This document shows positions 8,481 to 37,811 of a DNA stretch of 64,000 nt, piece by piece. Positions within the stretch are counted from its first letter, which is position 1; every line of letters begins with the position of its first letter. The notes below the pieces were generated by a model, which ran no database searches, had not been told where the DNA came from, and worked only from the letters and a program-made list of their open reading frames with translations. This DNA is from Rossellomorea aquimaris (GTDB taxonomy: Bacteria; Bacillota; Bacilli; Bacillales; Bacillaceae_B), in contig NZ_VTEX01000001.1 of assembly GCF_008180865.1 (NCBI RefSeq), forward strand, positions 1,265,809-1,329,808. Reading direction: 5' to 3'. Made by a program: the position numbers and the translations under genes.

Positions 8481-8765
8481 AAAAAAGTCCCCTATGAACA
8501 GAAAGCTCTGTTCATAGAGGACGATGCTGACCGCGGTGCCACCTCTGATTGGGATACGCTGACGTATCCCCTCTTGCTTCAAGTACGGGGTCTATCACCC
8601 GATACTCTATCCTTTTAACGGTGGAATTCCGTACGATCCTACTTCCATTCAGATCATCTCTCATAAGTCCATTCCACACAAGCTATCATGCCAAGGTCTC
8701 ACCATCCTTAGCTCTCTGTCATGCATCACTTGAATGTACTCCTCTTACTCAACGATTTATCATTA
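8481..8765 (-). promoter_or_regulatory. Promoter-proximal-to-trpE T-box riboswitch (UGG specifier)
   Basis: Second of two tandem T-box leaders. On the minus strand: an AAGAGGAGTAC AG-bulge motif, Stem I with specifier context GGAATGGACTTATGAG (UGG at 8669-8671, Trp), the T-box AGAGGTGGCACCGCG around 8526-8540, and a terminator GTCCTCTATGAACAG..CTGTTCATAGGGGAC plus TTTTTT at 8481-8522. Uncharged tRNA-Trp should pair with the specifier and the T-box bulge to favour antitermination into trpE. Confidence 0.9.
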
Positions 8766-8774
8766 TTAAGTTAT

Positions 8775-9070
8775 AAAAAAAGGGCATCCCTATCCATTTA
8801 CATCATGTAAAGGACGAGATACCCGTGGTGCCACCTTTGTTGACTGCCTGAACAGTCCACTCAATCGTATCGAAGCGGTTTGCTTGAATACGCGTCTTTT
8901 GTAACGATAAGACATTCGCCAAAGCCTACTCCCTAAAAGTTTCGGTCTGGAGGCTCAGAAGTCCATTCCCAAAGATCGTTCACACTGGTTCTCACCAACC
9001 ACCAGCTCTCTTAAGTGTCGATCAGAGGTACTCCTCTTCGTCAAAGCCATTCGCTCATTTAATTAATTGT
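8775..9070 (-). promoter_or_regulatory. Promoter-distal T-box riboswitch (UGG specifier)
   Basis: First T-box leader after the trp promoter. On the minus strand: GACGAAGAGGAGTAC, Stem I with AGAGAGCTGGTGGTTGGTGAGAACC, specifier context GGGAATGGACTTCTGAGC (UGG at 8963-8965), T-box AAAGGTGGCACCACGG around 8823-8838, and terminator GGGTATC..GATGCCC followed by TTTTTTT at 8775-8824. Both T-boxes carry the same Trp codon, so transcription must pass two tRNA-Trp checkpoints in series. Confidence 0.9.
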
Positions 9071-26980: not shown

Positions 26981-27125
26981 CCGCCGTTCCTTCTCCCATC
27001 CAGACTATCACTGTCGGCTTTGGAATTTCACCAAATCCACCGTCTAATTTTCATTAGCCGGGTCACGGACTAAGAGCATGCGCTCATCACCGCCGGTAGG
27101 GAATTTCACCCTGCCCCGAAGGAAA
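26981..27125 (-). promoter_or_regulatory. FMN riboswitch (RFN element)
   Basis: The minus strand shows the conserved aptamer blocks in order: TTCGGGGCAGGGTGAAATTC, CCTACCGGCGGTGATGAGC, AGTCCGTGACCCG, GACGGTGGATTTGGTGAAA, CCGACAGTGATAGTCTGGA and TGGGAGAAGGAACGGCGG. FMN binding should favour the downstream terminator and reduce ribDEBAH transcription. Confidence 0.97.
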
Positions 27126-27271
27126 CCTATTCGATTAACATTATTCTATCATAGTTTCATAAATGAAATCATGTAAGGAGCACTAAAATTATATTTTTGT
27201 ACTATTTTTTGAATATATATTAGAAACCTCTCTCTATTTCTAATTGTAAGCACTAAGAAATTGCTGCAAGA

Positions 27272-35717: not shown

Positions 35718-36848
35718 ATGAATTCGATACTATTAAAGAACGCAACTATATACCCCATCACATCAAAGCCCATACAAAACGGCTCTGTACTCATAAAAGA
35801 CGGAAAAATCAAACAGATATACTCAACTAGCGTAGAATCATCCCGAGAAGTTTCAGTGTATGATTGCCAGGGGAAATTTCTTTTCCCCGGTTTCATCGAC
35901 TCCCATACCCACCTGGGATTATACGACGAAGGTACAGGGTGGGCAGGTAATGATGCCAATGAAACCATCGAGCCCATGACTCCTCATATCCGTGCATTCG
36001 ATGGCGTTTATCCATTGGATCCAGGTTTTAAAGATGCCCTGAAGTACGGTGTCACAACGGTGAATGTCATGCCGGGGAGCGCAAATGTCATCGGTGGTAC
36101 GACTTCTGTGATCAAAACCTATGGCTCAACGATTCGTACGATGCTCATCAAAGAAACCTCGGGATTGAAAATTGCCCTGGGGGAGAACCCGAAGCGGATT
36201 CACAGTACCGGCAACAATGATTCCATTACAAGAATGGGCATAATGGGTATGCTTAGAGAAGCATTTTTCTCTGCTAAATATTGCGATCAACCTGAAGATC
36301 TCAGGGTTGCACCTTTAGTATCTGCATTAAAACGTGAAATCCCGGTTCGGATACATGCTCACCGTGCAGATGATATCTTGTCTGCCGTCCGGTTTGCCGA
36401 GGAATTCAATTTGGATTTTCGTATTGAGCATTGTACGGAAGGACATCTCATTTCCGAGGAATTTCATGGTAAGAATGTAAAGGTTTCTGTAGGGCCGACC
36501 TTTACGAGAAGATCGAAAGTGGAACTAAAAAACAAAAGCTGGATCACGTATCAAAAACTGACGGAAGCTGGTGTCGAAGTATCGATCACGACAGATCACC
36601 CGTACACCCCCATTCAATACTTGAATATGTGTGCGGCCATTGCTGTTCGTGAAGGGTTGGCAGAACAAAAAGCTCTTGAGGGCATCACCATCCTGCCCGC
36701 CAGAAACCTTGGTGTATCAGAACGGATCGGTAGTATTGAGGTGAACAAGGACGCCGATTTAGTCCTTTGGAGCCACCACCCTTTTCATTTTATGGCAAAG
36801 CCCATCATTACGATGGTGAATGGAGAAATCGCTTATCAAAACGTGTAG
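35718..36848 (+). CDS. Metal-dependent amidohydrolase
   Basis: 376 residues, amidohydrolase superfamily (beta-alpha barrel). The metal ligands are visible in order: FIDSHTHLGL (HxH), RIHAHRADD and IEHCTEGH (two His), and SITTDHP (Asp). Flanking beta-sandwich segments GSVLIKDGKIKQI and LVLWSHHPFHFMAKPIITMVNGEIAY are typical of imidazolonepropionase-like/dihydroorotase-like enzymes. Substrate not assignable. 63 bp after dedA; it could belong to that transcript. Confidence 0.87.
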   Translation: MNSILLKNATIYPITSKPIQNGSVLIKDGKIKQIYSTSVESSREVSVYDCQGKFLFPGFIDSHTHLGLYDEGTGWAGNDANETIEPMTPHIRAFDGVYPLDPGFKDALKYGVTTVNVMPGSANVIGGTTSVIKTYGSTIRTMLIKETSGLKIALGENPKRIHSTGNNDSITRMGIMGMLREAFFSAKYCDQPEDLRVAPLVSALKREIPVRIHAHRADDILSAVRFAEEFNLDFRIEHCTEGHLISEEFHGKNVKVSVGPTFTRRSKVELKNKSWITYQKLTEAGVEVSITTDHPYTPIQYLNMCAAIAVREGLAEQKALEGITILPARNLGVSERIGSIEVNKDADLVLWSHHPFHFMAKPIITMVNGEIAYQNV

Positions 36849-36947
36849 AAATTTGTTAAAAATTTTCATCAAAATTTAGCATTTTACCTATTTCCTTTTT
36901 GTTATATTTCGTATATGATACAAATGGATATTATATTTCCGATTACA

Positions 36948-36977
36948 TTGTTCTAACGAGATTTATTTTTATATAGA
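36948..36977 (+). promoter_or_regulatory. Candidate promoter of the GNAT leader transcript
   Basis: TTGTTC (36948-36953), 18-bp spacer, TATAGA (36972-36977). Transcription would start near 36984, right before the structured leader. Confidence 0.45.
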
Positions 36978-36983
36978 GTGATT

Positions 36984-37130
36984 GTAATGAAGGGAAGGCA
37001 AAAGGTGCGCCACCAGTTTCTTGACTGGTCTTAGTGGGTTCGATTCCCACCCCGAAATTTTTTAGTTACCATTTAAAAATTTCGAGGGTGGGATCGTACG
37101 CAAGTAGACTGCCCTCAAGGAGGGTCTACT
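36984..37130 (+). promoter_or_regulatory. Structured leader RNA with tRNA T-arm mimic and SD-sequestering hairpin
   Basis: Successive hairpins: GGTG-CGC-CACC (37004-37014); ACCAGT/ACTGGT (37012-37029), like an anticodon arm with an 8-base loop; GTGGG-TTCGATT-CCCAC (37034-37050), identical to a canonical tRNA T-arm; a competing long inverted repeat pairing 37041-37062 with 37075-37096; and CCCTC-AAG-GAGGG flanked by GTAGA/TCTAC (37104-37129) that buries the ribosome site of the downstream gene. No matching acceptor or D-arm, so not a tRNA gene. Function inferred to be regulatory. Confidence 0.6.
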
Positions 37131-37688
37131 ATGATCAAGAAACGTGAATTACATGAGTGTCATGAGCTCTATGACCTGATGGTGCACCCGGATGTCTTCC
37201 CTTTTGTGCGTCAAAAAGCTCAATCCTATGAGGAGCTCCTATTCTTAACGAAACAAACGATTGAAGCTGAGGAACGTGGAGAACTCATTTCACGAACAAT
37301 TTTGGACGAATGGGGCAACCCGATCGGAACGATAAACTTATTTGATATTCAAGAAAATGCTGGATTCCTGGGAACCTGGATCGGCAAGCCCTATCATGGA
37401 AAGGGATACAATCAGCCAGCCAAAGATGCATTCTTCGCAGAGCTATTCTTTGAATTGGGTATGGAAACCATCTTCATGAGAATCCGCAAAGTGAATACCC
37501 GCTCCCAAAAAGCAGCAGAAAAACTTCCATATGTTTTAAAAGCGAATGAAACAAGGAAATCTCTTTACGAACAATTAAATGCTCAAGAAGAAGTATATGA
37601 TTTATATGAAATCCCTAAAGACTTATATACACTTTATCTATATCAGCATCAACAATCCCAAGACGAAGAGCAAGCTTTGGAAGCTTAG
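37131..37688 (+). CDS. GNAT acetyltransferase, RimJ/RimL type
   Basis: 185 residues. RimL-like GNAT: RTILDEWGNPIGTINLFDI, AGFLGTWIGKPYHGKGYNQPAKDAFF (acetyl-CoA loop, slightly altered), and IFMRIRKVNTRSQKAAEKL. Acetylates an unknown amine, perhaps a protein N-terminus or small molecule. The ATG follows AAGGAGGG, which lies inside the leader hairpin. The C-terminal 50 residues are an extension of mixed helix with an acidic end. Confidence 0.83.
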   Translation: MIKKRELHECHELYDLMVHPDVFPFVRQKAQSYEELLFLTKQTIEAEERGELISRTILDEWGNPIGTINLFDIQENAGFLGTWIGKPYHGKGYNQPAKDAFFAELFFELGMETIFMRIRKVNTRSQKAAEKLPYVLKANETRKSLYEQLNAQEEVYDLYEIPKDLYTLYLYQHQQSQDEEQALEA

Positions 37689-37692
37689 GATA

Positions 37693-37727
37693 AAAACCCG
37701 ATTTCCATATGAGGAAATCGGGTTTTT
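37693..37727 (+). terminator. Terminator of the GNAT gene
   Basis: AACCCGATTTCC-ATATGA-GGAAATCGGGTTTTT. Confidence 0.9.
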
Positions 37728-37811
37728 GTTTAAAACAATATAGAAGACCTTTCCTCACACAGATTCAGCGGGAAAACGAATGATATGATCTCAAGAAATC
37801 AGTATAGCTCA

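Follow-up and report, generated by a model that had tools for sequence, protein, structure and literature searches.

tRNA-like elements in bacterial mRNA leaders

The closest described relative in design to the leader reported here is the yjdF riboswitch (RF01764). As far as the accessible text of PMC9142559 goes, this RNA adopts a tRNA-like fold, the formation of which switches on translation, to which the fold as such also contributes. Its aptamer displays equivalents of the D-loop and the T-loop as well as an adenine-rich junction, J1/2, and its third arm is not essential for folding (PMC9142559). In the part of a further yjdF study that was available, no acetyltransferase is named (PMC4793209).

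Two other RNA families share features with the leader. The T-box (RF00230) is likewise a Firmicute leader built on tRNA logic, but T-boxes bind a tRNA whereas the leader described here imitates one. tmRNA (RF00023) has a similar 17-base T-arm, and this likeness is weak (12.8 bits at this locus and 15.5 bits in five of 15 leader loci). Furthermore, the Gd4v element stands before GNAT acetyltransferase genes and is also an orphan leader element associated with GNAT; in contrast, the available text describes it as a guanidine-IV variant that was tested for transcription termination (PMC9788692).

Here, a 139-base leader directly 5' of a GNAT gene of Rossellomorea aquimaris is described, which starts with a conserved tRNA-like core. 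It was analysed within a window, i.e., the whole stretch of 64,000 nucleotides under study. No family of Rfam 15 fits the leader, only its T-arm resembles tmRNA, and miRNA-type matches are taken as long-hairpin noise since they lie far below the gathering scores. The original prediction that the element resembles no riboswitch class has to be corrected, since yjdF is a published tRNA-like translational switch according to the text available (PMC9142559).

Membership in the yjdF family was rejected. A search with RF01764 was negative for 36850-37200 (E up to 10) and for 15 leader loci (E up to 1); it also gave no hit in the genome of the window, while six of 81 genomes were positive. Vice versa, the leader model R1 did not match any of six yjdF loci with the E limit set to 10. 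The two RNAs differ in sequence by reading and precede different genes. What they have in common is a tRNA-like fold with a D-loop GG and a T-loop, seen here at the level of secondary structure and conserved loops. The platforms differ as well, since in yjdF, as far as described in the accessible text, the T-loop side itself pairs with the Shine-Dalgarno sequence, whereas the leader presented here uses a separate exchange of four strands.

The T-box was rejected because Rfam places RF00230 at 8514-9053 of the window and not at the leader. This region harbors two tandem T-box leaders on the minus strand (128.1 and 128.8 bits). The window also contains an FMN riboswitch at 26984-27127 on the minus strand (116.3 bits). 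tmRNA was rejected since nothing beyond the T-arm matches and the leader is not a gene of its own. No guanidine-class Rfam match was found at the leader or in the 15 loci. Also a tRNA gene is not present, as ARAGORN called none in the window, and instead of a complete cloverleaf with a 7-bp acceptor and an anticodon loop of seven bases the leader has a 3-bp acceptor and a loop of variable length.

A prior description of the element was not found in the open-licence PubMed Central papers searched, and an earlier description elsewhere is possible. The main texts of PMC8632094, PMC6429828 and PMC2864571 do not contain the words 'acetyltransferase', 'GNAT' or 'tRNA-like'.

Architecture of the leader

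The following features were assigned, all on the plus strand:

36992-37053, +, tRNA-like core, putative sensor domain (covariance model, alignments, direct reading)
36992-36994 with 37051-37053, +, acceptor stem of 3 bp, GGG with CCC, near-invariant among relatives
36995-36996, +, linker AA between acceptor stem and D-arm
36997-37011, +, D-arm GGC-AAAAGGTGC-GCC, near-invariant among relatives
37012, +, unpaired A between D-arm and anticodon-like arm
37013-37028, +, anticodon-like arm CCAGT-TTCTTG-ACTGG (direct reading), loop length free among relatives
37029-37033, +, variable loop TCTTA (direct reading)
37034-37050, +, canonical T-arm GTGGG-TTCGATT-CCCAC, the long hairpin making use of its 3' strand (strand 2) as well
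37054-37083, +, A+T-rich hairpin that fits both states and abuts the acceptor stem; seven of eight pairs with two-sided changes
37046-37064, +, left arm of the OFF hairpin (strand 2 and A/T stem)
37075-37092, +, right arm of the OFF hairpin, including strand 3 (37084-37092, GAGGGTGGG)
37109-37116, +, strand 4, CTGCCCTC, anti-Shine-Dalgarno (OFF) or partner of strand 3 (ON), from alternative-fold computations
37119-37124, +, Shine-Dalgarno sequence GGAGGG (strand 5; direct reading), six bases before the ATG at 37131
37131-37688, +, regulated gene, GNAT acetyltransferase of 185 amino acids (Acetyltransf_3, RimJ/RimL/SpeG-like fold)

The T-arm mimic and the anticodon-like arm of the original prediction were recovered. 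Its statement that an acceptor and a D-arm are lacking has to be revised, since both are present and near-invariant in relatives. Mutually exclusive pairings had also been proposed, and indeed the inverted repeat 37046-37064/37075-37092 uses the 3' strand of the T-arm; in the minimum-energy fold it is carried a few bases into the T-loop, near 37041-37062/37075-37096. The Shine-Dalgarno hairpin, likewise foreseen, is found at 37106-37127 by direct reading. A fourth helix, between strand 3 and the anti-Shine-Dalgarno strand at 37109-37116, completes the switch.

The region 36948-37130 reaches a minimum free energy of -61.4 kcal/mol versus a mean of -44.1 kcal/mol for 200 dinucleotide shuffles (z -4.35), none of which is as stable. 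Direct reading revealed no T-run after the hairpins, as had been stated, and a terminator scan of 36840-37780 gave no site, a silence that weighs little since the scan also missed a likely terminator hairpin at about 37692 after the gene. An intrinsic terminator was rejected, and the preference for translational control over termination is supported.

Conservation and linkage to the GNAT gene

In 61 related genomes, 56 match the protein at E 0.001 and 54 of these are close orthologs. The core precedes all 54, and the T-loop is present in every one of these leaders, although they were selected by the GNAT alone. A DNA search gave 18 matches from other families, 15 of which begin at query base 49-53; 17 are 75-88% identical, one short match reaches 91%, and no alignment extends into their surroundings.

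A covariance model built from 23 leaders was used for the genome scans. Strong matches were obtained in 304 of the 397 genomes of the order, every one with a GNAT; 19 of the 323 genomes with any match had weak ones (E 5e-5 to 1e-3), lack the GNAT and were left out of the 304. The GNAT itself was found in 308 of 397 genomes at E 1e-25, the two lists being compared by reading with the match-less genomes listed in part. Four genomes (G063, G105, G182 and G261) possess a GNAT, 46-57% identical, without the element. Scanning 398 genomes of the class at E 1e-5 adds seven genomes, belonging to one family outside the order, and a scan of 279 genomes of the phylum gave four matches, all within the order or the same extra family; absence elsewhere applies at the sensitivity of the scans and to the sampled genomes.

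A pattern scan of named genomes matched at least 120 stretches. Among the 80 matches listed are Rossellomorea, Priestia, Oceanobacillus, Psychrobacillus, Parageobacillus and similar genera, as well as one record labelled Paenibacillus and one Bacillota MAG. The GNAT lies directly downstream in 78 of these 80, and the remaining two loci end too early. A GNAT directly downstream was also seen at all 56 best-scoring loci of the model searches, 55 of which show the T-loop within the inspected stretch, the single miss supposedly being due to a shift at a contig end. A second GNAT search revealed the element at 18 of 23 inspected loci (missing at L142, L153, L155, L156 and L159).

The genome of the window harbors a single copy of the element. 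Some genomes deviate in copy number or gene integrity. Of the two close GNAT copies of G214, L163 has the leader and L142 lacks it, whereas G106 has two copies that both carry it (L144, L164). G137 (L158) retains the leader, but its GNAT match falls into two pieces, the second of which contains stops. One leader is located on a 690-kb replicon of Cytobacillus spongiae from a plasmid collection (NZ_CP089998.1, 647297-647451), next to a GNAT 98.1% identical to that of the window.

Judged by these sequence comparisons, the leader is almost certainly a conserved structured RNA tied to the GNAT gene, and it appears as a widespread cis-acting tRNA-like leader that is kept in hundreds of Bacillus-like species.

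Covariation and invariant positions

The covariance search foreseen with the original prediction was carried out, and the stems display compensatory changes. In 94 distinct rows, aligned by fitting to the model, 97.9% of the cells of the ON structure are paired and 13 of 24 pairs show two-sided changes; none of 500 shuffles is as high, and slid partners pair to at most 67.4%. Very similar values were obtained from a 23-row MAFFT alignment that was not fitted to the model (97.8% paired, seven of 24 pairs two-sided, 0/500 shuffles). The latter contains 23 of 30 distinct cores, leaving out six near-duplicates and L078, which has a long insert. The model-aligned set comprises 100 rows. Of these, 77 stem from the 80 listed loci of the pattern scan, 22 are loci of other origin and one is L003, and the 77 were found by a pattern that itself fixes the D-stem, the GG and the T-loop.

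Within the core, the parts behave differently. Three of the five T-stem pairs change on both sides, as seen in GTAGG:CCTAC, ATGGG:CCCAT and GCGGG:CCCGC. The anticodon-like stem covaries and its loop length is free. The D-stem is invariant in 94 of 94 distinct rows, and since it and the acceptor stem hardly vary, both are supported by conservation rather than covariation. The D-loop GG and the AA linker are invariant in all 100 rows, including the 77 chosen by a pattern that fixes D-stem and GG. Nearly invariant single-stranded parts are the AA linker, the D-loop AAWTGGTGM, the TA before the T-stem and the T-loop TTCGATT, the last being fixed by the search pattern itself in the pattern-found rows. 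In the 54 leaders selected by the GNAT, base 59 of the T-loop is always T, whereas 54 tRNA genes from three clusters of the window's genome have A in 23, T in 19, G in 10 and C in two cases.

Also the competing helix is conserved. In the same 94 model-fitted rows, 92.8% of the OFF-helix cells are paired and none of 500 shuffles is as high. The outer pairs are the weakest, being unpaired in 16-19 of 94 rows, the GTAGG leaders among them.

Computed strand exchange and access to the Shine-Dalgarno sequence

Four strands compete with one another around the Shine-Dalgarno sequence. The T-arm (1:2) together with helix 3:4 leaves it free, while the hairpin 2:3 together with helix 4:5 hides it. Here, strand 2 (CCCACCCC) pairs either with the 5' strands of T-arm and acceptor or with strand 3 (GAGGGTGG), and strand 4 pairs either with strand 3 or with the Shine-Dalgarno sequence.

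These alternatives were computed for non-redundant leaders. The switch tests, like the promoter match, the distances and the reading-frame counts given below, started from 272 GNAT reading frames, from which 184 distinct leaders were kept by an expression fixing the D-stem, the D-loop GG and TTCGATT, with duplicates and others dropped. In 65 non-redundant leaders, the unpaired probability of the Shine-Dalgarno sequence is 0.47 with the tRNA-like fold forced versus 0.19 with the T-arm forbidden. By more than 0.1, it rises with the tRNA-like fold in 43 leaders and falls in four, whereas leaders with shuffled linkers gave 12 up and one down of 60 (Mann-Whitney p 1e-6 against the real ones, a value that overstates and is not a true probability because the tested leaders are related). 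The median ON/OFF energy difference is 0.9 kcal/mol and lies within 5 kcal/mol in 51 of 65 leaders, on nearest-neighbour energies that ignore D-loop/T-loop contacts. For 41 non-redundant leaders of the pattern-scan loci, 26 went up, three down and 12 were neutral. A first, looser test of all 184 leaders plus 30 coding bases gave 60 up, 17 down and 107 within 0.05, and five of six own-genus leaders listed showed equal openness in both folds; this set was redundant, with many leaders from one genus, whereas in the later, non-redundant tests the whole core was forced.

With the ON fold forced, 57 of 65 leaders form a helix of 4 bp or more between strand 3 and the segment preceding the Shine-Dalgarno sequence, some of them with a partner other than the expected strand 4, and in the other eight no 3:4 helix reaches 4 bp. 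In 59 of 65 leaders, strand 3 can pair within the 25 bases preceding the Shine-Dalgarno sequence with an energy of -4 kcal/mol or lower. Divergent 3:4 pairs are kept as well, such as GGACAGTC:GGCTGTCC in L139 and GGGTGGCG:CGCTACCC in L078. In the Oceanobacillus oncorhynchi leader L229, all four strands are changed (strand 1 GCGGG, strand 2 CCCGC, strand 3 GAGGGCGGGT, strand 4 ACCCGCC) and by reading the pairings 1:2, 2:3 and 3:4 are preserved, which argues, from this single leader, that both alternative folds may be under selection.

Comparison and computation together support the conservation, the gene linkage, the stems and the competition of the strands. A conserved sensor with a mutually exclusive expression platform, as in a riboswitch, is present as far as computed. 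Three leaders of one family (L152, L154, L157) and one of Pullulanibacillus (L213) retain the core and use another sequence as downstream platform, which would fit a sensor attached to exchangeable outputs.

The GNAT gene and its putative promoter

Two further elements precede the leader:

36887-36901, +, CTATTTCYTTTT-type box, about 26 bases before the candidate -10 box, preceding many leaders
36914-36921, +, TATGATAC, candidate -10 box for transcription of the leader; the best match is similar in 43 of 65 non-redundant leaders

Both boxes were assigned without a chance control, and the -10 count refers to an A+T-rich stretch. Since a scan for the sigma-70 consensus around the leader found nothing, the promoter is a putative one. 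The CTATTTCYTTTT-type box is unlike a normal -35 and could thus be a regulator site.

The protein has a GNAT fold of the SpeG/RimL/RimJ type, which matches enzymes acting on small molecules and on protein N-termini. All 57 orthologs examined are acidic proteins (pI 4.35-6.23). The profile of the GNAT gave no match to PDB sequences at 1e-6, and a separate search gave two weak ones (E 0.0019 and 0.0069). NCBIfam and the gene neighbors provided no lead to its function. The gene usually stands alone, a same-strand gene following within 60 bases at eight of 124 loci. Upstream, the commonest neighbor family occurs at 67 of 134 loci and resembles the window's amidohydrolase by sequence.

Proposed mechanism

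According to these data, the leader is likely to be a cis-acting translational ON switch that uses a tRNA-like domain as its sensor and operates in the manner of yjdF. The sensor would be the tRNA-like domain with its short acceptor stem, D-arm, free anticodon-like arm and canonical T-arm. In tRNA, the GG of the D-loop docks onto the T-loop, and the D-loop GG and the T-loop TTCGATT of the leader are positioned such that they may dock like a tRNA elbow. In the ON state, the folded domain would capture strand 2, strand 3 would pair with strand 4, and the Shine-Dalgarno sequence would be free. In the OFF state the domain would be unfolded, strand 2 would join strand 3 in the long hairpin, and strand 4 would cover the Shine-Dalgarno sequence. 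Since the computed energies of the two states differ little, more GNAT would be made in the presence of an effector that stabilizes the tRNA-like fold. We infer that the leader switches in the cell, that the elbow docks and that binding leads to the ON state.

At a guess, the most likely effector would be a small molecule connected with the substrate of the GNAT. Polyamine sensing, suggested by the SpeG-like fold, is only a guess because the scores for SpeG tie with those for RimL and FdhC. By analogy, one may guess that the effector sits in the near-invariant junction of AA linker, D-loop and TYCTA, as is thought for azaaromatics in J1/2 of yjdF.

Alternative explanations

Instead of a small molecule, a protein might control the leader, and the original prediction had considered one that binds T-arms. 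Here, the GNAT itself or a tRNA enzyme or modifier that binds the elbow, such as TruB, TrmFO, RNase P and the like, would bind the domain and set translation, as ThrRS does at its own mRNA in E. coli. This is possible, if rather unlikely. The invariant face, consisting of elbow and junction and not of the anticodon-like arm, would suit such a protein, as would the fixed T at base 59 and the usually solitary GNAT gene, but the acidity of all 57 orthologs makes direct RNA binding by the GNAT less likely, and its fold points to small molecules and protein N-termini. A related and equally tentative idea is that the leader, the T-loop of which is fully canonical, represents a further tRNA-fold riboregulator class independent of the first, and that its state would report on tRNA biology and not on a metabolite. 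Elbow binding or modification, e.g., by the m5U54 or pseudouridine 55 enzymes, or the ribosome, would then be sensed, and the GNAT substrate would be linked to tRNA or the ribosome.

It is improbable that the fold acts as a constitutive enhancer, boosting translation by ribosome contact without any effector. tRNAs placed before a Shine-Dalgarno sequence did raise in vitro translation 2- to 6.3-fold, according to the accessible text of PMC9142559, but such an enhancer needs neither a conserved competing hairpin nor the helices 3:4 and 4:5 nor an invariant junction.

A leader peptide was rejected as the main reading and kept as a minor, highly improbable rival. In this case, translation of a short frame that starts ahead of the core and stops at a TAG in the variable loop would set the fold. 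The window has such an open frame of 15 codons (36988-37035), beginning with an ATG ahead of the core. Among 65 leaders, 16 from several families have the frame with both a start (ATG, GTG or TTG) and the TAG stop, and this frame is opened somewhat oftener than the other two (30 versus 18 and 23). However, the opened and closed frame is missing in 49 of 65 leaders, and the distance from D-stem to T-stem takes all values modulo 3 (31, 19 and 15 of 65).

A decayed tRNA gene, in the sense of the tRNA gene remnant of the original prediction, or an attachment-site remnant has next to no probability and was discarded, since, even though the T-arm is one base off the T-arms of tRNA-Trp and tRNA-His of the same genome and the D-arm/T-loop pattern recurs in two phage tRNA genes, the same gene adjoins in 304 of 397 genomes, changes are compensatory, the 3-bp acceptor is retained, the anticodon-like loop varies freely, a complete tRNA was called neither at the locus nor elsewhere in the window, and the genome holds a single copy. 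The two phage genes, on IMG/VR contigs, are a tRNA-Met (L296, 1616-1690) and a tRNA-Pro (L297, 4240-4316) with the D-arm pattern GGCAANNGGTGAGCC and the T-loop of the core, and no GNAT match was found there. Real tRNAs thus use this combination, and an ancient origin of the leader core from a tRNA is possible.

Significance

A translational switch is the preferred reading of this leader, a conserved regulatory RNA without a match in Rfam 15 that occurs in a large group of Bacillus-like bacteria and presents an unusually legible switch. If this is true, the tRNA fold would have been adopted as a sensor for gene control at least twice, here and in yjdF, and how a tRNA fold can be made to sense would become directly testable. 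The effector, in turn, would give a hint at what an uncharacterised acetyltransferase does.
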